Assembly: GCA_025435555.1 (NCBI GenBank)
Contig: JAIWWG010000106.1
Coordinates: forward strand, 32,126-96,125
DNA: 64,000 nt
Direction: 5' to 3'
Source of the DNA: Chytriomyces cf. hyalinus JEL632
Taxonomy: Eukaryota > Chytridiomycota > Chytridiomycetes > Chytridiales > Chytriomycetaceae
Shown here piece after piece: positions 12,189 to 31,600 of this stretch. The notes beneath the pieces are model-generated. The model was not told the DNA's origin. It searched no databases and saw only the letters and a list, made by a program, of their open reading frames with translations. Within the stretch, counting starts at the first letter, position 1. Every line of letters starts with the position of its first letter. The position numbers and the translations under genes are program-made.

Positions 12189-15100
12189 CTACCACCCCTT
12201 CTCCGTCTCGAGCCCCTGCGTGTAAAACGCGGGAATGCTTGTATTCCTCAGCCGTTCCATCACAAACTTGTTGCTCTCCTCAAACACGTCCGGATGATAA
12301 TCTGCCTCATCGTTTAGTTTGGAAACCAGGCGTTTCAGCGTCGCTTCTCCGAGCCGCAGCGAGTTTCCTCGCAGAAACTTTTCTGAAATCTCAACCGTCA
12401 TTGCGTGCAGCTCGTTGCGGCTGCTGTGGACCGTCACGCCGTTACGCAGGACAAACTCGGGTATGTCTTTGCAATGTTTTCGGTAGTGCTCCATGAGGAG
12501 GATGAATTCAAGGTCGCGTTCCGTGTGGGATTTGAGGAGAAAGTTGTAAAAGTCTGTGAATGTTGGGATTTTAGAATGGGATAAACGATTGGCTTTGTAT
12601 GCTTACCCGCCAACGAAAGAGGAGACGCCAGCCTGTTTTGTAGCACTTGAAGAATGAGGGGGTCCTGCTCCTTTGCCATATCCGCCTCTTTCCCTCCTTC
12701 CCGATGCAGAAGGTCGTCTGGCACAATGGTATGAAGACCGGCATCATCGCCGTAGTCCTTTGAGTTTTCTTCAAAGAACCGTGGGAAGCTGGACACACGC
12801 ATGATCGAAAGAACTTCCAGAAACGCGTCGTTGAAGATATCTGCGCTGTAATTGTTGTCGATTTGGATGCTCTTCAAAATGGCTGTCTTGACTTTGGAAG
12901 GGAGACAGACTTCTCGTTCGCCGTTACTCAGCAAGAACGTTTCAATGATTTTCACGGCGGCGTCTTTGATTTCCGTCTCAGATCCGCGTTTGCAGATTTT
13001 GCGGTAATTGATTACCGACATGTAGAAATCAAAGTTTTCCTGTGAATGCTCCTTCTTCAAGTACACGTAAAAGTCGTTCCGAGACAGGGGTGGGGACGTC
13101 TTGTCTGCAAGCACCTGGAACAGGAGCATGCTCAGCTTACCCCCTGAGGACCCATCCTGCCCGCCGTCCAGCTCCAACCACTCCTGCATCTCATCCTCCT
13201 CCGCCTCATCCAACCCGCCGGCAACTGTTGCCGCTGCCGTCCCAGCAGCAGCAGCACTGCCCTTCTTGTCCCCTTTGCTCGTCTTCTTGGTGCCGACAAT
13301 TTTGAGTTTGACGCCTTTCGCTTTCGTGGTAGCGAGCTTATAAAACGCTGGGAAACTACTGCGCTGCATGTTCAAGCACACGTGTTGTACGGCCGCTTCA
13401 AAGATTCTCGGCGTCCAGTTTCCGTTCTTGTTGACTTCCGAGTCGAGAAATAGTCTGATTTGGCTGGGAACGTTCACGTGCAGGCGGGATTCTGTGTCAA
13501 TGTATTTGCTCACGATTTCGTTGAGTTCACTTTTGACGCGGATCATGAGTGCGGATGTTTGTGTTGGGGCTGTGGCCAGGTTGGTTGTGTTGAGATTGAG
13601 GTTTGGGGTCAGTGGTGATATTGGCGACGTGGGGAGGGTTGCTGACGCAGCTACAGGGAAAGTGGTGGATGCCGTGGGAGATGCAGAAAATACTGCTGCC
13701 GGTGGGTTCGGGGAAATAGGCGACGCCCTCACAGCATTTGCTGGGTTGTTTAAGATCCCTTCAGGAATCTTTTCGCAGATACGCTTATATCTTTTGACTG
13801 CGAGGTAAAAGTCTACCAAATGCGCCTTCTTTTCCTTCTTGAGGTATGTTCTGAAATCTTTTAACGGGGGTACAAGTCAGACAGTAATAAATTAAATGCA
13901 ATGCTTTTAGTTACCTCTGCAAGACAGGGGTGGTGGTATCTTGTCTTCCAGCGTTTGTTGCAGTCCGTACTTTAACTGCGCAGGTGTTACCATGTCAGCA
14001 AACTGGCGGTCTGAGTTTGATTCGCCGGTGACTTTCCAAATAGCATTTACTCTATCTCCGTTGGTGGAGTCGTTGTTGTCATCGAACGTGAATGTCTGAA
14101 AAGCGAGTCTTGAAAGAATGCGGTTCGAAATTGTAGCTCTGGAGGAAGTGTCTGTGACTTCGAGCAGCTGGAACTGCACCTCCTCGACCAGGGGCAGCGT
14201 TACTCCAGTTGTGGATTTGACCGCGAACGATTCATCCACATTGATCTGGATCACGACTTGTTTCTGAAACTTTGGGAAACTCGCCAGTTTCAACGTTGTG
14301 ATGACATTTTCCAAAACAACCTTGAAAATGTCGGGATGAATATTCTTTTTCTCCGAGACTTCTTGGCACACTATGGCGCGAATGCTTGGGGGAACGTTTA
14401 ATTCTTGTGGCGACTTTACGGCAATGAAGCGGCTGATTAAGTCCGTGACGGCTGATTTGCATTGTTCCATGAGTTTGGTGTCGGCAGATTCACCCGCGGC
14501 TCGTCCGCTTAGAACTTGCGACGGCAGCTTTTCGCAGAGTTGTTGGTATTTTCGGAGGGCCATGTAAAATTCAATGTTTTCTTCAGAATGTTCGCGGATC
14601 AGGAAGCTGTGGAAATCTGTGCAAACCAGACAAAGGGGAATGGGTTTACAAAAACATGCGGCCTACAAGCGATACAAAAAAGCATACCTTTCAGAGATAC
14701 CGGAGACAGCAACTGATCCTCCAATATCTGAGAGATGGTATACTTGAGCGTGATCGGGCCCTTCAAAATGGCAGCTTTGTAAAAGTTTGGAAAACTCGAC
14801 AAGCGAACCATTGTTAAAATCGTATCCAAGGCGTCCCTGAAAACATCCGGATGCAAGTTATTTTGTTCAGTAACTTGCGCCACGATCGGTTTAAGAATGT
14901 GAGATGGGATGTTGAGTTCGCGTTCGGCGCCGGGCGTGAAAAACTTTTCCACAATGTTGAAAGCGGATGTTTTTGCGCGTTCGAGTTTTGTTGGGTCGTA
15001 TTCTTGCCCTTCGGGGCTGGTAGAGTTTAGGAGTGCGTCGTTGGGGATTTCCTCGCAAATGCGTTTGTGCTCCTTCACTGCCAAGTAGAAGTCAATGTTT

Positions 15101-18100
15101 TCATCGGAGCTCTCTCCGATCAGGTAGCGATGTAAATCTGAATTTATAACGTGTTAGTTTACAAGGGTTGAGAAGAGATTCAAGACAGAGTTGCTCACCC
15201 TTCATTGAAAACGGAGTTGAAAACTGATCCTCCAGCACCTGCAAGACACCAAACTTGATTGCAGCGTCAGCTCCTTCTTCAAGAATGGAGGCGCGTCGCA
15301 CTAAAGGCGACATTAGCGCTGGCTGGTATGTCACGCTTGCCCGTCGTGCCTCCATCACCGAGTTTCGCACCTCGTCCTCCAGTCTATCAAGCGCCGAAAT
15401 AGCAGGCTTGTTAAACTTGGTCAACGAAGAAGCGCGGCGGACTGTGGCTTTGGGACTGTTCGCTTCGGAGAGAACGCTGGATGAGGATATGACAGATTCC
15501 AGCGCATTGTCACTTTTGACAGTTGAAAATCGCTGGCTTTCTGTTCCACCGGGCGATGGAGGGATGGATTCGTCTTCTCCACTGAATGAGTTTTCAAGCT
15601 TGGACGAGCTTTTTGAGACTTGGCGACTGCTGCCTGGCTTGTTTGAAATTTTTTTCTTGTTGGGTCGTAGAGTGCCTTTGGCGCTTGCGGCTTTGAAAAA
15701 CTTTGGCGCCACCAAAGTTTTATGGGTATTCAGAACCAATTCCATCGCATCGTCAAACACTTGAGGATGTAGATTCCGCTTCTCGTTCACTTCCGCCAGC
15801 ACAGCTTTCAAGATTTCTGGAGGAATGTTGACTTCTTGTCTGGACCCTTTTGCGAGGAATTTGGCAACGATTTGGATTACGGCAAAAAATGCTTTTGATA
15901 GTTCCTCGCTTTTGAAAGACTTTGAGTTAATGAGTTGTTCATCGGGTATGGGCGCGCTTTGGGTTTGGTAGGCTTTTACGGCGTAGTAGAAATCGATGCC
16001 TCGTTCTTCTCCTTCGTCGGTTGCGAATTTAACGTAGTCTGGTGTTTTGTGAAAGAATTCAGTGTACCAAATACATTGAGATGAAAATGAAATGAAATAC
16101 CTTTGCTCGAAAACGGAGCCTGGTACTCATCGTTTAACACCTCAACAAGAGCAACTTTGATTTCATCGGCTCCAAAATCCGCTGCTATTTTCACCGTTGG
16201 CGACTTTAACGTGGGAATGTTGTCAATCCACGACTTTGGTCTCGGTTTCTTTGCTTGCGCTGACTCTGCTTCCGCGTCCATTTCCTCTTCTTTCTTTGCG
16301 GCCGCTTTTTCGGACATCCGCTTCTTGGTAACTTCTTTCACGAAATTGGGAAAACTCGACAGCCGCAGCATTGTCAAAACAACAACAAACGCATCTTGAA
16401 ACACGTCTGGATGAATGTTTAAGTTGCTGTTGACGTTTTCTGTCAGCGGCCGTTTCACTTTGATGGGGATGTTGAGTTCAAATTCGCCATCCTCGGCAAC
16501 GAACGCTTGCATGAGTTGTTTGCACGCGGCTTTTGCTGCTTCTAGTTTTTCAATGTCTTCGGTGTTGTTTGGGACTTCGTTTGAATTTCGTAAGAGGTCA
16601 TCCGGGATGTTTTTGCATAGTTTCTCGTAGCCTCTGAGTTTGATGTAAAATTCAAAGTTTTCCTCGGAATGCTCACGACACAGGAAATCACGGAAATCTG
16701 GCGAAGAAAATTCAGTCAGATGGACTTCCTTTAAACAAAGACTTCATTGTCTAACCTTGTCTTGACATTGGCGGCGGCAGCATATCATCCAGAACTTGCA
16801 GAACCGTTGGCCGAAGTTTCGGCTCTCCTTTCACCGAGGCAACTTTACAGAAATTCGGGAAACTCGAAAGGCGCATCATTGTCAACACATTGTCGAGCGC
16901 ATTGTCAAATATAGTTGGGTTGATGTTGGTTTTCAGTTCCAAAGCCGAGATTAAGGGTTTCATAATTTTGGAAGGAATGTTCAACTCGATGGGTGCACCG
17001 GACGCAAAGAATTGCGCATAAATTAGATCAAGCGATGATTTGAGTTTGGTTAACTTGGCGTCGAGATTTGGATCTGAGTTGGAAATGTTGGTGTCGTTCA
17101 TTGCTGCGATGGGGATTTTTTCACACTGTCGCTGGTAGTCTTTCACGGCCATGTAGAAGGCGTAATTCTCTTCGGAATGCTCGCTTTGAAGAAAAGAATG
17201 AAAGTCTATGTTTTTTTCGCGTTTTATATTTGTGATTGCTGTCGAAACAAATGTTTGATGTTACCTTTTTGCGAAAACGGGGGACACAGCTGGTCTTCAA
17301 GCACTTGAACTACAGTAAACGAGATTGGTTTTCTATCACCAGAGCCGCTAAGCGGTCGCGGTTTCATTGTATCCGGACTGAGCAAACTGGGATCGTCATC
17401 GCCATCCCATCCAACTGGAAGTGAACACGTTTCTCCAATGTTGAGTCGTTTTGGTTTCTTGAGTAACTTTGAAATCGCAAATTTCGAGCGTTGCGCTGTA
17501 GCGTCGGACGTCTCGGTAGTGGAGATGCTCATTCGCTGTGTCGTGGACTCGTTTGTTTCTCGGATTGAACTTGTCGGGCGGTTTGAAGAAGCGAGTTTTT
17601 TGGACTGGTTTGCTTCGCGCACAAATTTTGGGAAAGTTGACACGGACAGCTGGTTGACCATTTTATCCAATGCTTCCAGGAATATGCGTGGATGAATGTG
17701 GTTGGAAGTTTTGACTTGATCAATGAGCATGGATCTTGTGGAAGTGTCGAGAGGGAGAGTGGCTCTTTCAAGAATGTTCGTGATTTCGAGGGCAGCAGTT
17801 TTTAGCCTTGAAAACGTTTCTTGTTCTCGTTCTTGCGTGTTCGGTTTTTCAAGCGCGGCAGAAGGAATATCTTTGACGAATTTCGTGACGGCATCGTAAA
17901 ATTCCAGAGTTCCCTCAAGCCCTTCGCCTTTCAGAAAGTCATTGAATTCTGTAAATTGATCTCTTTTAGAATATCAGTTGGGGCATTTGGGGCGTTTCCT
18001 CACCTTGCTTTGACATTGGAGACGGCAAGTCTCCAGCCAGGACTTGCTTGACTGTCGGTCGAAACTTGGCTGGCCCTTTGATTGCACCTAATTTAAGAAA

Positions 18101-21100
18101 CTTTGGAAGATCCGCACTGCTTAGCGAAGCAACCACTTCATTCACACATTCTGTGAACGCGTCTGGTACTACGTAAGTGTCAGATTCCAGCCTAGACAGC
18201 AGCGACTCTGCATTTCCCACAGAGATGCAAAGATTCGCACACGCATCGGGAGAGCTGAGTCGTGACTTGATTCGGGCTGATGCTTGCTTGATGCGGTCCA
18301 AGTCAAACGACATGAGCGAGCCTTGTAAAACAGTGGAAAGGTTGGTCCAGATGTCTGCGGGGATTCTGCTCCACAGTTTTTTGTATGTTTGGAGCTCGGA
18401 GTGGAAATCGATCATGTCGAGGCGGTTTTCGTGGAGTAGAAATTTTTGGAAGTCTGGACCGATGGTTGACATTAGTCAAGCTTGGTACATCCCGGTATCA
18501 TCAGTTTCAAATTACCTTCCAAGGAGAAAGGCTCCATCAACTGGTCCTCAAGTACTTGCACGATAGAGATTTGGTCCATGGACTTCACAGGTTTCAACAA
18601 CGCGGGTTCATCAAACTCGCCCACGGCACCCAACTGAGCCCTGACTTCATCTTTTGCCTCTGCAGCAACCTCGTCATCCATCTCATTAGCCCATTCTCCC
18701 TGCACTGCGGGAAGTGACGCTGTCTGGTCTCCTCTCGTTCTCCCGCGTGTCGGACTTTTCATCAATTTCGAGAAATTGAATTTACTCGTGCTTACGCGAA
18801 CAGCATCAAGAACTTCAAAAGAGCTGTTTTGCGAATTGACTGATTTCGTAACGCTTTGCCGTGCAGATCCGTTTTGTTTTTCAACTTCTTTGCAGAATGC
18901 TTTGAAACTTGTTTCTCGCAGCAATGAAACGACCAAGTCTACGACTTTGGACAATGCGGCGGGGTTCACATGTCCCAGGATTGACGTGTCTTCAAGGACA
19001 GAGACACGCAGTGGAAATGGAATGTTGAGTTGGTATCGCGAGCCACCTGCAAAGAATGAGTTGATGATTTCGATGGATTTGGATTTTGCGAGGTCGGAGA
19101 TGGCGGTGGTTCCGGCGCAGAGGCTTTCGTATTCTTTTGCTGCGGGGTAAAAAATGACGCCGGATTCTGCACCGGATCGGGCTAGGAAGTTTCGAAAGTC
19201 TTGAGAAACAAAGTAAGGCTTTTAGAGAAGAATGGAGGGGGAAAAAATGGCAAGAAAAAGTGAAAAACTGTACCGATTAAGGAATAAGGACTATGCAACC
19301 GATCCGCCAAAACATTTTCAATACACGTTCGATACTGGATCCTTCCCTTCGCAAGCGCCACTCTTTGAAAATTCGGTAAACTCGACAACCGCATCATTTG
19401 AACCACGTTTTCCAATGCACGCGAAAACACGTCTGGATGGATGTTTCCTCGCTCATTGATGTTTGCGTGTAATGGTTTTAGGATAGTTGATGGCATGTTG
19501 AGCTCTGTGTCTGAATCTTTGGAGAAATATGTGGACACCATTGCGTCGAGAAGGGTTCTAATTTGGGACAAAATTTCGCCGAATTGAGTTTCGTATTCGA
19601 TACGGCTGTTTTTGTCTTTGAGGAGAAAGTCGGGGATGCTTTTGCATAGGGCCTTGTATTCGTTCAAGTCGCAGTAAAATTTCATGTTTTCTGAGGAATG
19701 CTCACTGTTGAGAAATGTTTTGAAGTCTAGGTTTTGATTTTTGTTGTAAGTTCATGTCACGCGTGAATACCTCAAAGTGTCAAACCTGAGAGAGAAAACG
19801 GTGTTTCATAATTGTCCTCTAAGATGCAGTAAATATCTGCTGAAATGAATCCAGCCTGGCTGTTTCGCGCCGACGGCGGCCTGGACTGCCGAGGATCGAC
19901 AGGAGCTTCTTCACCAACTCCAAAGGTAGATGACTCTTTTCCAGAGTTGCTTTTGGTGCCCGTCCAACATTTGAGTGCGTGGAACACCTGAGCCATGTTT
20001 GAAAGAACGGGTCCTTCCACTTCCAATGACCGCGCTGGTGCTTTATCCGCGTCGATTCTCATGATAATTTTCCCCTTCCCGCACGCGTCTTTGCAGAAAC
20101 TCGGGAAACTTGACAGCTTCAACATTGCAAAGACATTTCCCATTGCATCTGCAAATACTTCTGGGTGGATGTTCTGGCGGGATCGGATATTGTCCATTAG
20201 TGGTTGTTTGATTTTTGCTGGGATGTTGAGTTCGAGGATGGATCCTTGGTGAAGGAATCGGTCGAGGATTTGGAGGACGGTGATGATGGCGACTCCGAGG
20301 TATTTCATTTCCTGAGTATTCTCGTCGCTGAATACTGCGTGGCGGAGTAATTCGTCGGGAACGTTGCTGCAGATTTGGGTGTATTCTCGAAGTGCCAGGA
20401 AAAACTCAATGTTTTCCTCCGAGTGCTCCCGGTATAGAAATTCTTTGAAATCTGGTGCCATTAGAAAGGAGTGGGTTAAAGTGCTAGTAAAATTGTGACA
20501 ATGGCTGCTACACAAACCTTTATGTGAAAATGGAGGATAAAACGCGTCATCGACAACTTGCTGGACTGATATTTCCGACACTTTCAACATTTTTATCTGC
20601 TGCGGAATAAGCTCGGCACTACGGCTGTTCTCCCCCGCCACCATCAAGCCGCCATTCTCTGAAATTGATCCACAAGTTTGATTCCTTCGTTTTGCTTCAT
20701 TCGATTCATTTGTGGCTTGAAACTTTTCAAACGTGGGCGCTATCTTTTGAAGAACATGGTACGCGATTCCGTCGAACGCGCCTTTATGAAAACTGCAGCT
20801 TCGCTCCATTTCTTCAACGTAGCTAATGTGGCTTAACGACACTTCGATGGGCTGTTGCGCGTCTTTCGAAATGAACGATTTTACAATTTCTTTGAATTTT
20901 GATGCTGCAAGGGGTTCGGGAGAGTCTTCTTTGGATGCTGCGGGGTCTAAGAATAGGGTACGGTAGGATCGTACGGCGAGGTAAAAGTCTATTGCGCTTT
21001 TGCAGGTTTGGTCGCTGCAGAATTCGTTGAATTCTGGATTGCAAAGTGGGTTACGTTTACACGAGTTTCGGGCGTTAATAAGTTTGGAATATTACCAGAA

Positions 21101-21915
21101 AAGGACATTGGAGAGGGCAAGAGATTATCCAGAACCTGCTCAATAGTCGCACGCAACCTGCATTCCCCCCGCATCGACGCCGCCTTGTAAAAATTCGGAA
21201 AACTCGACAACCGCAGCATCGTAAACACATTCTCCAAAATCTTTTTGAAAATGTCTGGATGAAAGTTTTTGCCCTCCACTTCCTTCTTCATCACGCGTAT
21301 CAGGTTTGCTGGGACGTTAAGTTCTTGCTCAACGCCCGTTGTAAAGAATCGGTCAATCATTGCAAAGAGGGATGTTGAAATGTCTTCGATGAGGTGGTCT
21401 GGTTTCGAGTCGGTTGCTGAGATGTTGCGGAGAAGTGTTCCCGAGACACACGCGCACTTGCGTTCGTATTCTTTTAATGCGAGGAAAAAGTCAATGTTTT
21501 CTTCGGAATGTTCGGCCATAAGGAATAGCTGGAAGTCTGCGAAAAAAAAAGACGCGTGTTGAAACACGGTGGGTTATTATCATTCTTTCTTTCTTTCGTT
21601 TTTTTTTTTTTTGTTCCTGTTAGGCTCACCTCGCATCGAAAAAGGTGGAGCGTACAAGTCTTCGAGAACATCCTGCACAGTAATCTTTGAAACTCCTGGC
21701 ACGAGCGATTGCCGCCGTTCCGGCCTCTTCAACGAAGAACGCGTTGTTTCGTCCGCAGCGCCATCCGTCTTCAAACTGCGGGACAAAGAAGCTGCCTGCA
21801 CATGCAGATCCGAGTTTTGGTATGTATATTGAGATGGTGTCTGAGGGTTGTCTTGGACCCCGCCGGGGCTGTCCGCATCATCCATTTCGATCACAAAAAA
21901 TTTCGTCGTCTTCAT
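12189..21915 (-). CDS. Giant protein of about 15 tandem RGS-type modules
   Basis: Fifteen exons fit: 21630-21915, 21096-21536, 20518-21033, 19786-20451, 19274-19726, 18516-19199, 18004-18453, 17265-17948, 16756-17205, 16101-16697, 15199-16038, 14688-15137, 13915-14616, 12607-13857, 12189-12553; total about 2,944 residues. Exons 2-15 each start at the D/E of an RGS-like block such as DFHSFLIREHSEENIEFYMA and end in the helix leading to the next (VLEDQLxPPFSxK). The second half of each module has ELNIP, then hPDVF, then MLRLSSFPNF. Every intron is phase 1 at the same point. Exon 14 holds two modules without an intron. RGS domains speed GTP hydrolysis on G-alpha; whether these modules do is unknown, and modules 2, 5 and 7 are divergent. 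No membrane segment, DEP or GGL domain is evident. The gene is divergent from a small secreted protein. Confidence 0.9.
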
Positions 21916-21998: not shown

Positions 21999-22417
21999 AT
22001 GAAGATGTTCGCTGTGAGTTTAGTGGCTGCGGTGGCGGTAGCTGTGATGGGAAGGGTTGCTGGAGCAGTTCCGTTGCCGGCGAACTCTGTGTGGGATGTG
22101 GCCAATGCTGCTGCTATGAGATCAAACCAAGTGTCATTAGTATCCAATGCTAGCATGTTTCAGGCCGGGGAAGCAGGTTTGGCTGCGTTCTTTTCTCTTA
22201 CTTTTACAACTTTCAAAAATGACGGATCAACAACACGGCAGTTCCATCGATGCAGGCATCACATTTTGTAGCTGACCATCAAACTAACTCTACGCTCGCT
22301 AAAATGGTCGTTGAAGGCGGAACGGACCAACTCGTGCGGGATATGTTCTTTGGAGCGCATGCATATGCAAGCAACGTGTCTGCCTCTGACGAGACACATC
22401 GAATGGCCGGCCCATGA
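21999..22417 (+). CDS. Small secreted protein, no known domain
   Basis: Two exons fit, 21999-22176 and 22242-22417, phase-consistent and giving about 117 residues. The N-terminus is a classic signal peptide: MKMF, a hydrophobic AVSLVAAVAVAVMG core, then AGA before AVPLP. The mature part has no Cys, several Asn sites that could be glycosylated (VSNASMF, QTNSTL, ASNVSAS) and no domain I recognise. It sits between the RGS array and the ceramidase. Without expression evidence the splice model rests on phase and on GT...AG sites only. Confidence 0.55.
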
Positions 22418-22550
22418 TGTTACAGCTGCTTTCCCACGAAATTATGCGAGATTCTCTCAGAAATTCTGGACCCAGGGCCAGGGGCAGGAAGCATTAGAAA
22501 TAAAAATATCAGTGCGATGTCAGTGCACCAATCATATTTTTCCTTCAAAA

Positions 22551-25500
22551 ATGCGGCGTCGCTACTCACTCCCGTTCAGCGACAAGGAAGCCATCCAGAC
22601 CAAGAAGAAAAAAGAGCGGGATCGGGGCCTGTCCAGATGCTGCTTGTACATTGCCATCGCTGTGGCCAACGTGCTTCTCATTGCGCTGCTTATGCGTCCA
22701 AATGTCCATGTCTCCCACTCAGCCACCGAGCCAGCTTCACCCGCGATGGCTGTGAATCAGAGGACACGGCAGCAGCAAGACATTCAATTGTATACAGCAT
22801 CGCAGTCGTTCAATTCTTCGATTCTTGTAAGCTTTGTTGTTGTTTTCAGTGAGATGATTTTGCTTACAAGTTGTTGCAAGGTGGGGAAGGGCAAGGCCCA
22901 GATTGACCTGCCCATTGGAGAAATCAACATGATGGGATACGCAGAGCTGAGCCAGAATGCAAATGGCGTTCATCTCAGACTGAAAGCAAGGGCGTTCATC
23001 TTTGCAAATTTGGACACCCCGCATAACAGGGTTGTGACTGTCGTCGCCGATTTGGGTAATTTTTTTGGGAATTTCATTGGCAGAAGAACAAACGATGCGG
23101 ACGTTCTAAACAAGGGAAACTTGGCCATTACGCGCGTTTATTTAGGATTCATGTCCTCGATTGCGCGGCAGGAAGTCATTCAGCGATTGAATGAACCCGC
23201 TTACCAAAACCCAGCCACGAAGCAGCCCTTGTATACCCTTGAAAACGTCATGATTTCAGTCACGCACACGCATTCAGGCCCGGGAGGCTTTGCCGATGAG
23301 TTGAGTTACAACAAGTACACGTAACGAACTACCTCCACTGAAAACCACATATACTGCAAACACACAGCTTCCTGTACCAAATCACCAGTCTCGGTCGAGT
23401 ACCATACGCACGAGAATCTGTAGTAGATGCAATCGTTTCAGCAATTCAGAAAGCGCATCAAGATCTCACAGCAAGTCTCGCAGATTCCAAATCTCATTCC
23501 CGCCAAACTCTTGTTTTGAATTCCGGGTTTCTCCCAAATGCCGGTCTGAACCGCAGTCCTGTTGCGTACCTGCAAAACCCTGATGAAGAACGAGCGCGGT
23601 ATGAAGGCAACGTGGATCAGCGTATGGTTGCGTTGAATATGTGGAAACAGGTTCGTGAAAATGGTGGCGTGAGGAAGGAAAGAGTGTTGGTGGGTCATTT
23701 GAATTGGTTTGCTGTGCACGGAACGAGCTTGCATAGCACCAATTTGCTTGTTTCTGGAGATAATAAGGGGTTTGCGTCGTATATTTGGGAGCTTGAGATG
23801 GCCAAAAAGTCCCCTAATTTTATTGCTGCGTTTGCTCAGTCGAATTCGGTGAGTCGGCTTCTTTTTCTTTCATGCTTTTTTGAACGCGTATTGAAGCATG
23901 GAACCGTGAATCGAACATTCCAGGGTGATGTCAGCCCGAACCTCATCCCGCCACGATGTTTGGACACCAAAGAACCTTGCGACGGGTCGAAAAGTTCTTG
24001 CAGGGGTGATGGAACCAAATGCGTTGGTCTAGGGCCGGTAAGAAAAACACATATACACAACAAGACGCGTTTCTGACAAGTCTTCTTTCTTGCTCGAATT
24101 CATTCAGGGTGAAGATGAGGGTAAAGATGATTTCTACTCTGCAGAATACATTGGCAGGCTTCAGTACGAAAAAGCGCGACACATATCGGAATTTGAAGAT
24201 GGGCTCGAAGTTCGAGGTCCTGTGTTGTTTCGTCATGCGTGGGTGGATATGAGCGATTTGACGGTATGCTGTTGGAATTTGTACTTTTGTTGTCGCTGCT
24301 GCTAATGTTAAGAATGTTGTCGTGGCCAGGTGAAACTTCAGAATGGAAATTACGCAAAGACTTGCAAACCAGCTATGGTGATTATTTTAAAATGTTTTTG
24401 GTGTTTCACGAAACATCTGAACGAAAGCGAACAAACAGGGCTATTCATTCGTTGCAGGGACAACTGACGGCAAAGGAATTGCATTCTCATACCAAGGATT
24501 CAACAGAAGGGATGAAAAAAACATGGTTCTCGGGTTTTTACGAGATTTTTTAAATTCACGCCCAGTGTCCTCCGAACTGGAGCGATGCCATGCCCCGAAA
24601 CCGATTTTACTCAACTCTGGCGACAACATGTCACCATATCCGTGGCAACCACAAGTACTTCCAGTTCAAATGTTTGTCATTGGAAGGAAACTGGCGCTTA
24701 TTGGGCAGCCAAGCGAAATGTCGACCATGGCAGGTAGACGGCTTCGAAGTTCCATTAAAGATGCGCTTGTTCAAGATTCTGTGATTGACAAGGACGCGGA
24801 AGTGGTGGTTGCAGGGCTGGCGAATGCGTATTCATCGTATGTAACGACGTTTGAAGAGTACCAGGTGCAGCGGTATGAAGGTGCTTCCACCATTTTCGGG
24901 CCACATACGTTGACGGCGTATCAAAATGTGTATCAGCAAATGGCAGAATCTTTTACGAATTCGAGTCGTGCTTTGGTGAATGGGAACCCACCGGGCAGGC
25001 CTGAGACGGAAGTTTCGCTGCTTGCGCCGGTTGTGTTGGATGCAGTGCGGCCTGGCTCATCTTTTGGGCTTGTGATTAAGGAGCCGGAGCGGCCAGTTTA
25101 TAGCCTTGTGCCGAAACGGTTTGCTTCCTGGAAACCGATTCACTCTCAATTCGGCGACGGTTCCGTATCGCATCGTATAAAAAACGTGACTGCAACCGTT
25201 AGCGCTACATTTTGGTGTGCGCATCCTCGAAATGGTGCTGGGTATATTGCCGAATCGACCGGTGAGCCTTCGTTCATGACTGTTGAGCGGCATGACAAGG
25301 TAAACGATACGTGGCATGTTTTCTTGACGGATGCGGAGTGGGACACGCGTTTTACGTGGAGTAGATCTGGAATCGCCGAGAGTGTGTGTAAATTGCAGTG
25401 GGATGTGGGGCGGACTGTGATGGCGTTGCCGGGGTTATATCGGTTCCGGATCTACGGTGTGGCAAAGACGCTGTTTGGGGAGAGAAAGTATTCGGGGACG

Positions 25501-25551
25501 AGTGCTGCGTTTGCGCTGGTGCAAGAGGAGGATGGGCTAGTGCTGCAGTGA
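22551..25551 (+). CDS. Neutral ceramidase, type II membrane form
   Basis: Seven exons fit at 22551-22826, 22881-23320, 23368-23848, 23924-24037, 24108-24263, 24330-24377 and 24439-25551, giving about 875 residues. A basic cytosolic start is followed by a membrane anchor (CCLYIAIAVANVLLIALLM) and a short stem, as in animal neutral ceramidases. Catalytic-domain landmarks are MMGYAELSQNANGVHLR, the zinc-binding THTHSGPGGF, NPDEERARY, and QSNSGDVSPN, which holds the nucleophilic Ser/Gly-Asp region and is formed across an intron. GTTDGKGIAFSYQGF and the C-terminal beta-sandwich (from about TEVSLLAP) complete the family layout. The enzyme hydrolyses ceramide to sphingosine and fatty acid. It is likely exposed at the cell surface or secretory lumen. 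Confidence 0.93.
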
Positions 25552-28631: not shown

Positions 28632-31600
28632 TCAGACTGTGCTTGATGGAACGACAAAGACGGCATCCGTTTGGTCAACGAGATCGATGCCGCGGCAGTT
28701 TGTGTATACGTAGGACGTCTTGTTCTCGGCGTCATAGCTGGAGGGAGCCCTTGGTTTGGACGGGCTCTGCGCCTTTCTATTTGTGGCGCGGTAGAGCCCG
28801 AGCGGGACCATGTCTCGCTTCAGGAAATGCGCCACCAGCTCCGAGTATTTGTGGCCGTGCAATGCTGACGGTACTGGCAGTTGGATCACGCTGGAAGCGA
28901 GGGCCGTGACAACGTCTCCCAAATACGGCCGGAAATACGACTGTGCCAACAACGAATGCAAAAAGGAAACAGGCACAACTCTTCCCATTGCAAAGTTTTT
29001 ATCAAAGTGGTGGCTCACGCTTGGAGAAAACCCTGACTCGTTTAGTTCTGCTTCTTCAACGAGTCTCTGGAGGTATGCAGATGAAATGGATGAGGACGCT
29101 TTGCCGGTGGGGCTGTCTGCTGATGCTTCAGCGTGCGTGTCATCATCTGCTGCTCCTTCGTGGTGGGTGTGTTGTTCTTGTGCAAGGGATTGTGTGGTTT
29201 GGATTTCGAGAGTTGGGCGGGAAGTTGTGGCGGCAAGGAGACCGGTGGTATCGTCTCCGGGAACGTCGGTGGTGCGGGACAAGGCAGGCATTTTTGGAAG
29301 GACTTTCGAGCTGAAGAAGGTGATTGGGTTGTATGTCTTGTTGTTTGCGCCAGCATTAGATCTTTGCATCATATCTCCCGGTTGCTGCTGCTCGGAAGGC
29401 CAAATGAACTGGTATAATCTGTACAAAAAGTTTTCCTTATCAGCTCCGCGTTGACGGACTTTTTTGTACAGCGTGATTCTGTCGTGGATGCCGAGAGTGT
29501 AATTGTTGAGGATGGATTGCATGCGGAGGTTGTCGGTGTTCCATTCCATGTTGCGTTGGCTTGCGCTAAAGTATTTTACGTTGGCGCCGCTGACGAGTTC
29601 GACGATGAAGTTTGTGTTGGGCCATTCCTTTTTGTGTTTTTGACGTGGGTGTGATATGTGAGTGCAAATTTTGGTGGTTGTACGAAGTTGGGGTGGAGTT
29701 TGTTACCTCTTGGATCATTTTGATGATGAAGATGGAGTTTGCGTCTGGGAGGATGTGCGCGTTTTCAGCTGCGGCGGAGGACTCAACGGGCGTGGAAAAG
29801 ATGACGATACGCTGACAGTCTGCCACGCCTGCAGCAAGAAGACTTGTCTTTTTCAACGGAGTTCCTTTCATGATTTTGACGTGAGCGTCACTCAGAATGT
29901 CGGCCCAGATTCCTCCGTCTCCTTCGTTTTCTGCAACTTTCACGACTTCGTCCATTAGACAAATGATTCGGACTGGGTCTTTTGGTGTCGATTCTGCTGT
30001 GGCTGCAAAGGTGTCGGTTTCGGCGGATCGGACGGACGTGACAAATTTGCGAATCCCACGAGCAGTTACGTGTCCGCAGAGGATAATATGGCTTTGAGAT
30101 CTTGGTGAGATGGATGCCGGAGTTGCTTCGATAAATGGGGAGGAAAGGCTTTCGGTGGAGCTTGTCAGAGCGCCTTTTGGATCCAGTTTTGCGGCCATTT
30201 CCGCTTCAAGTTCGAGCATTTCGAGGTGCTCGCGAGGAATCGAGTCTTTGAACTGAATGGATACGCGCAGAATGACTTCGTCGCCACCGCTTGTGAGGCA
30301 AAACACGACATCATCGCCGCGCAGGGTGTAACTTTTGCCCGGGTTGAGTCGCAGTTTTCCAATGCGTGGGCCCGAGAGTGACATGACGGCAAACAGCGTT
30401 ACATTGAAGGTTCGGAACACTGTCTCTACGACTTCGTCCCATTTGACTTGACTAAGGCCCGGCGGGATTCGGAATGAGAATACGTGATTTGATGCTCCTA
30501 GCGAGTATTCGTACATCCACTGCTCATTGCCCTGCAGCGGGTTCCTATCCGTGGAGTATGTAGAAATCATGTTCAGCACGAGTGCTAGGAAACCTGGGAC
30601 CAGACACTCTCGCGCGAGGATTGACATTTTGACCTTATCCGAGCAAAGAACCCTGTCGCATCCGCAATGGGCACTCAGGTCCTCTGATCGAATGTCAAGC
30701 ACTTCTCCAAGCACAGGGATGCCAGGGTAGATTTTCTTTGTAACGAGAGCTTGCATGAGAATCTCAGCATCTGCTCCGCGAGTGACTCGAATCTGTTCGT
30801 CCTCTTGCGCAGATGTTGAGTCCATATCGACAGGTTCGTTGATGAGGAACAGGGCTGTGGCATATTTCGCCGCCGCTCGTTTCAAGTCTGTGGCAGAGAG
30901 CGCCGATCCGTATAGATAAAAAATGCGGTTGCGGTACGTTGGATGGCGCAGCAGTTTCTTGACGAGGAGACTGGGTTCCGCCTGGGCAAGAATTACCACA
31001 TTACTGTTTGTGTCAGCCGCAAAAAATTCGCGGCAAAAGTCGACAATTGCAGAGTATGTTGTGGATCCAGAGATGATGACGTGCGCAGCGCGAGTGGTGG
31101 GAGAATATTTTGCGCGCTGGTACTGCGAACTTGCGTTGTAGATTTCAGAGATGCGACCACTCTGAATTGGGACATAGATGATGACAAAGATGATGAGGAA
31201 CATGACAACGATTCGGGAGGGAATGGAGGATGGTGTGAGGTCTCCGAATCCAATTGTGCTGAGGTTCGTTTTATGGATGAGCGGAACAATCAACTCGAAT
31301 AACTCAACACGCGCACCTGAACGTGACCATGATATAGTACAAGCTATCGTGCCAGAACACCAGCGATGGGCTGGACTGCTTGTCCTTGTTGATTGTTTCG
31401 AGGGCATTGATGATACTCGCCGACAGGAAAATGAAGTTGCAGAACGTCAATCCAGCAATTGTCAATTCTCTCTTTTCTTCCGTTTCCGAAAACGACAAGA
31501 GCCTGTACGTTCTTAAAATCCGCGACGCACGTAAGATCCGCAACAGCCCAAGGAACCAAATAAACTGCGAATGCTCCCGAACGATCAAGTAAATGAACGG

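Follow-up and report, generated by a model that had tools for sequence, protein, structure and literature searches.

A chytrid gene for fifteen tandem RGS modules, a candidate multivalent G-alpha-binding scaffold with a shifted RGS/G-alpha interface

What could a protein made up of fifteen RGS modules in a row do in a fungal cell? The question is raised by a gene in a stretch of 64,000 nucleotides (nt) of Chytriomyces cf. hyalinus JEL632 (contig JAIWWG010000106.1, positions 32,126 to 96,125), referred to here as the window. On the minus strand, from the ATG at 21915 to the end of the stop codon at 12189 (12189..21915), one spliced frame of 15 exons encodes 2,944 amino acids (aa) without internal stops; start, stop, exon count and length reproduce the original prediction, which had been made from the letters and the open reading frames of the window. 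That prediction left two functions side by side, a multivalent G-alpha scaffold and reuse of the RGS fold as a structural repeat. Our analysis lends support to the first, for which, taken as a scaffold that binds several G-alphas through a shifted RGS/G-alpha interface, we see about an even chance, and it retains the second as the main rival.

A Pfam-A scan of the spliced protein returned the RGS family (PF00615) at E = 4.1e-178 and 582.3 bits, compared with a cut-off of 23.9, in 15 separate stretches at E<=0.01, and no other Pfam family at that threshold, which bears out both the RGS identity and the number of modules (M1 to M15) first proposed. Scored against a profile of the other 14, each module reached 51.7-168.5 bits, while the best scores of 200 shuffles per module were 3.0-13.5 bits. 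In solved structures, the module profile matched RGS2 (E 1.2e-12) and RGS1 (E 4e-12) best, axin at E 1.4e-4 and 2.1e-4, RGS22 (a chain of 1,257 aa in the PDB) at E 0.0044 and GRK2 at E 0.19-0.34; a profile of M12-M15 gave no match to RGS22 in solved structures at E<=1. On these values, RGS22 orthology was ruled out on sequence. The main departure from the RGS consensus is SFPNF in place of DSYPRF, so that one half of the module core described as unusual stands as such; the other half, ELNIP, is not exotic, since it corresponds in alignment to the RGS2 loop EINID, and the catalytic Asn is kept in the seven modules with a full contact triad described below. The SEEN motif of the repeated block is likewise less general than proposed, as it is missing from M2, M5, M6, M7, M10, M13 and M15.

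All 14 introns, 53-93 nt long, are GT-AG and phase 1, and all lie immediately upstream of the [DE]-[FYL] that opens the module core. Introns were read as GT...AG within hand-set stretches with at least 90 nt of open frame past the acceptor, and where several candidates existed, a phase-1 join to the [DE]-[FYL] module start, and the ATG at 21915, were preferred. At six of the 14 junctions the scanned stretch held a single candidate, and there the phase and place are independent of this preference. Fifteen modules and fifteen exons do not match one to one: exon 1 (21630..21915) holds the N-terminus and only the first helix of M1, which continues across intron 1 (21537..21629, 93 nt, phase 1), exon 14 holds the remainder of M13 and the entire M14, and M15 spans intron 14 (12554..12606, 53 nt, phase 1). 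The modules cover ~69% of the protein.

Does the frame describe one gene, or several separate RGS genes fused in reading? Among 5.8 billion proteins, restricted to lengths of about 1,620-5,150 aa, a first search returned five proteins, all of them chytrid: orthologues in Chytriomyces confervae (2,953 aa, 95% identical to the window protein), C. hyalinus (2,951 aa, 88%), Siphonaria sp. (2,946 aa, 47%) and Physocladia obscura (2,719 aa, 40%), and a partial one in Entophlyctis luteolus (2,408 aa). The 95% identity supports a chytrid origin of the window, whose organism is probably closely related to C. confervae. Pfam located 15 RGS stretches in each of the two orthologues scanned, C. confervae and Siphonaria, the latter with two further families below their cut-offs. 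Profile searches with M8-M15 and M12-M15, which scored 7,983 and 8,000 candidates sharing most words, did not return RGS22 and added only Obelidium mucronatum, where the stretch is annotated as three proteins (1,590, 581 and 413 aa). Such an annotation speaks for separate genes; the contigs of the three models (P0008, P0006, P0007) are, however, all 134,116 long and the internal breaks fall inside M3 and M11 rather than between modules, so they look like one split gene, and we consider it likely that the annotation divided it. The artefact is further opposed by the open frame across 14 introns at one module position, by the full-length annotations in C. confervae, C. hyalinus and Siphonaria, and by the annotated C. 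confervae protein, which joins as our splice model does, without insertion or loss, at 14 of 14 junctions. The joins differ at intron 8 in C. hyalinus, introns 8 and 11 in Siphonaria and introns 3, 5 and 14 in Physocladia, the Entophlyctis and Obelidium models being partial in this comparison; gap columns at introns 11 and 12 stem from extra residues in Siphonaria or Entophlyctis. These extra residues sit exactly at the place of intron 11 (M11, Siphonaria P0003) and of intron 12 (M12, Entophlyctis P0005), where they resemble introns retained by annotation. On the orthologue evidence we reject the reading as separate genes, which we regard as highly improbable.

Three protein searches, two of them on the candidates sharing most words, found no such chain outside Chytriomyces, Siphonaria, Physocladia, Entophlyctis and Obelidium. 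The proposal of a lineage-specific subfamily therefore holds within the reach of these searches, over five chytrid genera, while absence beyond them is unproven because the candidate set scored was limited. In agreement with the original prediction, no comparable RGS chain was found described in the open-licence literature on tandem or multiple RGS domains, chytrid RGS proteins, RGS22, G-alpha expansion and RGS-insensitivity, and there was little on RGS or G-alpha expansion in chytrids; the phrase 'three RGS domains', as it stands in the available portions of two papers, refers to domains of three separate proteins.

If the modules act on G-alpha, the residues that make contact with it should reveal this. 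Positions are named after RGS4 by way of the module alignment with the RGS2 sequence, a numbering that we take to be correct, as we do the role of E87 as a G-alpha contact. The full triad of E87, N88 and N128 is present in seven of the 15 window modules, all on the minus strand: M1 (21190..21684), M3 (20096..20572), M4 (19368..19840), M8 (16850..17319), M9 (16342..16810), M11 (14782..15253) and M12 (14267..14742). According to the available text of PMC8252600, Asn88 and Asn128 of RGS4 contact Thr182 and Gln204 of G-alpha. Elsewhere the triad is complete in 9/15 modules of Siphonaria, 8/14 of Physocladia, 6/12 of Entophlyctis and 4/7 of Obelidium P0006, which brings the total to 34 of 63 modules over five genera, the remainder lacking it. 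When the seven window modules are compared with their orthologues, E87 and N128 agree in 23/23 cases and N88 in 22/23; in the ranking of 108 columns, where mean identity is 0.53, E87, N128 and N88 take places 3, 2 and 10. In the other eight modules the window residue is matched at E87 in only 6/25, at N88 in 4/25 and at N128 in 3/25 comparisons.

These eight modules differ among themselves. M2 (20720..21150) has lost the triad in the window and kept it in Siphonaria and Physocladia, and M6 (18098..18570) is diverged in the window with the triad kept in Siphonaria, Obelidium and Physocladia. The triad is lost in M5 (18895..19328) and M7 (17623..18058) and absent from M10 (15695..16155) in all five genera compared. 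M13 (13343..13969), which carries a long insert, has lost the triad, yet is among the most conserved modules; M14 (12776..13129), wholly in exon 14, keeps E87 and N88 with Cys at N128; M15 (12225..12661) has lost the triad and is conserved in Siphonaria. Identity to Siphonaria, with gaps counted as different, is 48.5% over the modules and 28.0% over the linkers, and for single modules it ranges from 0.25-0.33 (M2, M5, M6, M7) up to 0.67-0.74 (M13-M15). In the comparison with Entophlyctis, M13 again leads (0.67) and M14 (0.49) lies below M8, M11 and M12; outside Chytriomyces, M15 can be compared with Siphonaria only.

We examined the possible partners of the chain in the same genome. A search with the G-alpha family (PF00503) gave 96 exon-level matches, which we grouped by eye into 34 loci, to be read as loci rather than confirmed genes, after excluding two weak lone matches (C111:608534, C161:71168). 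Switch I and switch II could be read in all 34, with a pattern that allowed only T/S at Thr181 and Q/H at Gln204 and missed no locus. Thr181 is present in 34/34 and Gln204 in 32/34, the other two having His, so the GTPase chemistry that an RGS protein would assist is there. Thr182 is kept in 22/34. Gly183 of switch I is kept in only six loci and missing in 28, where it is replaced by Thr (10), Lys (4), Arg (3), Ala (3), Ser (2), Asn (2) or His, Gln, Glu and Cys (1 each); in a column check against solved G-alpha-o, the chytrid Thr falls on the KTTG glycine. Just two copies of the standard KTTG motif are present, and over the region read they do not differ. Some of the 34 loci are near-copies, with 27 distinct switch I and II strings among them all. 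As far as the available parts of PMC7572916 and PMC9283941 report, a Gly-to-Ser change at this switch I position disrupts RGS action on mammalian and Naegleria G-alphas. Among the G-alpha loci we also noted Met at the place of Lys180 in 23/34, clusters on C220, C100, C161, C171, C1 and C44 (L024-L048), an odd switch I in the two loci with His for the catalytic Gln204 (L042, L048; DVGGHR), and identity over the switch region between L028, L038 and L040, which lie on different contigs and may be recent duplicates or assembly redundancy.

A six-frame PF00615 search of the genome gave 20 matches, of which 14 are modules of the chain (M6 was missed), and the remaining six are other places, so that six RGS loci outside the chain stand against 34 G-alpha loci. 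Four of the six give weak matches to the module profile (E 1.6e-5 to 2.6e-7, among 124 open frames). Class C receptors (PF00003) gave 56 exon-level matches with clusters on C193 and C210, a number that agrees with the enrichment of glutamate-type receptors in Chytridiomycota described in the accessible part of PMC12842992.

The spacing of the modules is in part fixed. At five junctions, M1-M2, M4-M5, M6-M7, M8-M9 and M11-M12, the linker is 13 residues long, and over five genera this length recurs in 23 of 24 such junctions (5/5 each in the window, Siphonaria, Physocladia and Obelidium, there three in P0006 and two in P0008 and P0007, and 3/4 in Entophlyctis, where one pair linker has 11 residues). 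In C. confervae and C. hyalinus all five linkers are likewise 13 residues long, as expected of near-copies. The remaining nine linkers measure 30-171 residues and most vary between genera, M7-M8 (89-102) and M14-M15 (36-38 in three of four) being less variable; linker values of 0 or 4 in incomplete models were disregarded, as was the Entophlyctis M2-M3 value. The fixed linkers, set against the longer ones, suggest that ten modules form five two-module units of set geometry and that the other five are single and tethered, among them M3 with long linkers on both sides.

From these observations we propose how the chain may function. A giant protein with RGS modules alone would dock several active G-alphas at once: its triad modules would bind G-alpha-GTP in pairs of set spacing, the pairs would act as rigid two-headed units, and the tethers would allow them to reach several G-alphas, on which GTP hydrolysis may be hastened or which may be held off their effectors. 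M13-M15, well conserved and without the full triad, could anchor the protein or bind another partner.

Several results weigh against this scaffold model. According to the same excerpt of PMC8252600, D163 of RGS4 stabilises Thr182 of G-alpha, and D163 is absent from all 63 modules (Ser in 48); R167 is absent from 62 of 63 (Asn in 26, Lys in 12), the sole Arg being that of window M14. In the other RGS loci, by eye, D occupies the 163 place in L020, L021 and L022, not in L017, L018 and L019. Eight of the 15 modules lack the full triad, and among these are M13-M15, the closest to Siphonaria. The conservation of the seven triad modules is conditional on their having been selected by the triad in the window, and residues of the core rank as high as the triad columns. 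Finally, the effect of Thr, Lys, Arg or Ala at Gly183 is one that we infer, the published tests being of Gly to Ser.

The replaced positions are themselves partly conserved, since the seven triad modules keep the residue at the 163 position in 20/23 comparisons and at the 167 position in 14/23. With a near-invariant triad next to replaced D163 and R167, the usual contact surface is, judged from these columns, in part under strong constraint and in part changed. The altered pocket may suit the unusual switch I found in G-alphas of this organism, and we hypothesize, from a comparison within one genome, that the two changes belong together. In its full form this proposal describes a shifted shut-off, in which the 28 of 34 G-alphas without the switch I Gly would be served by a giant protein whose pocket was altered in parallel (mostly Ser for D163, mostly Asn or Lys for R167), with the catalytic Asn in about half of the modules, five rigid pairs and tethered single heads; we put it forward tentatively, as a combination of parts that is possible rather than probable.

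The same replacements can be read in another way, namely that the modules bind other proteins, or bind G-alpha without GTPase-activating (GAP) activity, as the RGS-homology domains of GRK and axin do, so that the chain would serve as a multi-site adaptor. The loss of D163 and R167 and the eight modules without a full triad are consistent with this, and GRK2 and axin chains do appear, weakly, in the module profile search. They rank far below the canonical RGS proteins there, however, and the identity of the Asn128 equivalent in every comparison of the seven triad modules argues in the opposite direction; we judge such an adaptor rather unlikely.

In the structural alternative, the RGS fold would have been reused to build a cytoskeletal or flagellar scaffold of helical repeats, as in mammalian RGS22, with G-alpha binding vestigial. 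Chytrids have flagellate zoospores. The fixed 13-residue spacing, the lack of D163 in all 63 modules and the closeness to Siphonaria of M13-M15, modules without the full triad, all fit this alternative. RGS22 itself is a conserved ciliary protein of the radial spokes RS1 and RS2, as stated in the available sections of PMC11779644 and PMC12423330. On the other side, the modules are far from RGS22 in sequence by the profile values given above, and near-invariant E87, N88 and N128 in seven modules across genera would not be expected of a purely structural role. We regard structural reuse as doubtful, and more plausible than the adaptor.

How and when did the chain arise? We calculated a module tree from 63 of 93 module slices of the five genera, leaving out the 30 slices of the near-copies C. 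confervae and C. hyalinus; Obelidium is represented in it by P0006. For ten of the 15 positions, the modules of the different genera fall into a single clade (M1, M3, M4, M5 and M10-M15; the M1 and M5 clades are without starred support and M15 has two rows only), and the position labels require 17 changes on the tree, where 14 is the minimum and shuffling gives 50.3 on average. On this tree, most of the chain is older than the split of these genera, and its modules have been kept apart rather than homogenized; a recent tandem expansion in this species is ruled out by the same counts. M2, M6, M7, M8 and M9 are not single clades, and long branches lead to window M2, M5 and M6 and to several other M5-M7 rows. 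M6 of Siphonaria, Obelidium and Physocladia and, on a long branch, that of Entophlyctis are nested among the M8 modules, an indication that M6-M7 and M8-M9 arose by copying of one two-module unit; the diverged M6 of the window lies outside this grouping. With every one of the 14 introns in phase 1 and at one module position, the exons are symmetric, a type whose duplication can leave the reading frame intact. Such exons were probably duplicated, in part as two-module units, to build up the chain before the genera split.

The surroundings of the gene are ordinary by comparison, with a Pfam match in seven of the ten neighbouring open frames scanned. By Pfam, a neutral ceramidase gene (22272-25548, plus strand) adjoins the RGS gene, and 29569-31446 on the minus strand encodes part of a Slo/BK-type calcium-activated potassium channel.

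If the chain binds G-alpha, it would represent a natural case of multivalent control of G-protein signalling at fixed spacing, in a genome with 34 G-alpha loci and 56 exon-level class C receptor matches, and the joint oddity of G-alpha switch I and RGS pocket would make it directly testable how an RGS/G-alpha interface can be rewired. If it is structural, it would be another case in which the RGS fold became a repeat, separate from RGS22.

Among known systems, RGS22 resembles the chain in carrying several RGS domains in one protein, about three in mammals, and in its occurrence in ciliated or flagellate organisms; it differs in its weak profile match, its shorter length and its role as a radial spoke protein. 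D-AKAP2/AKAP10, to judge from general descriptions of it, is alike in having more than one RGS domain, namely two, which stand beside a PKA-anchoring motif. The RGS-homology domains of axin and GRK have the RGS fold without, as we understand it, the canonical contact set, and the triad-less modules, assigned to this fold by their profile matches, resemble them in this respect; the axin and GRK domains are single domains beside others and of lower similarity. The canonical RGS proteins RGS2, RGS1 and RGS4 have one RGS domain instead of fifteen, and differ further in the two pocket positions, D163 and R167, that are replaced here (mostly by Ser and by Asn or Lys), while the chain has no Pfam domain other than RGS. 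In family membership at all 15 stretches, in the triad of seven modules and in the best profile matches, to RGS2 and RGS1, they are nonetheless what the modules resemble.

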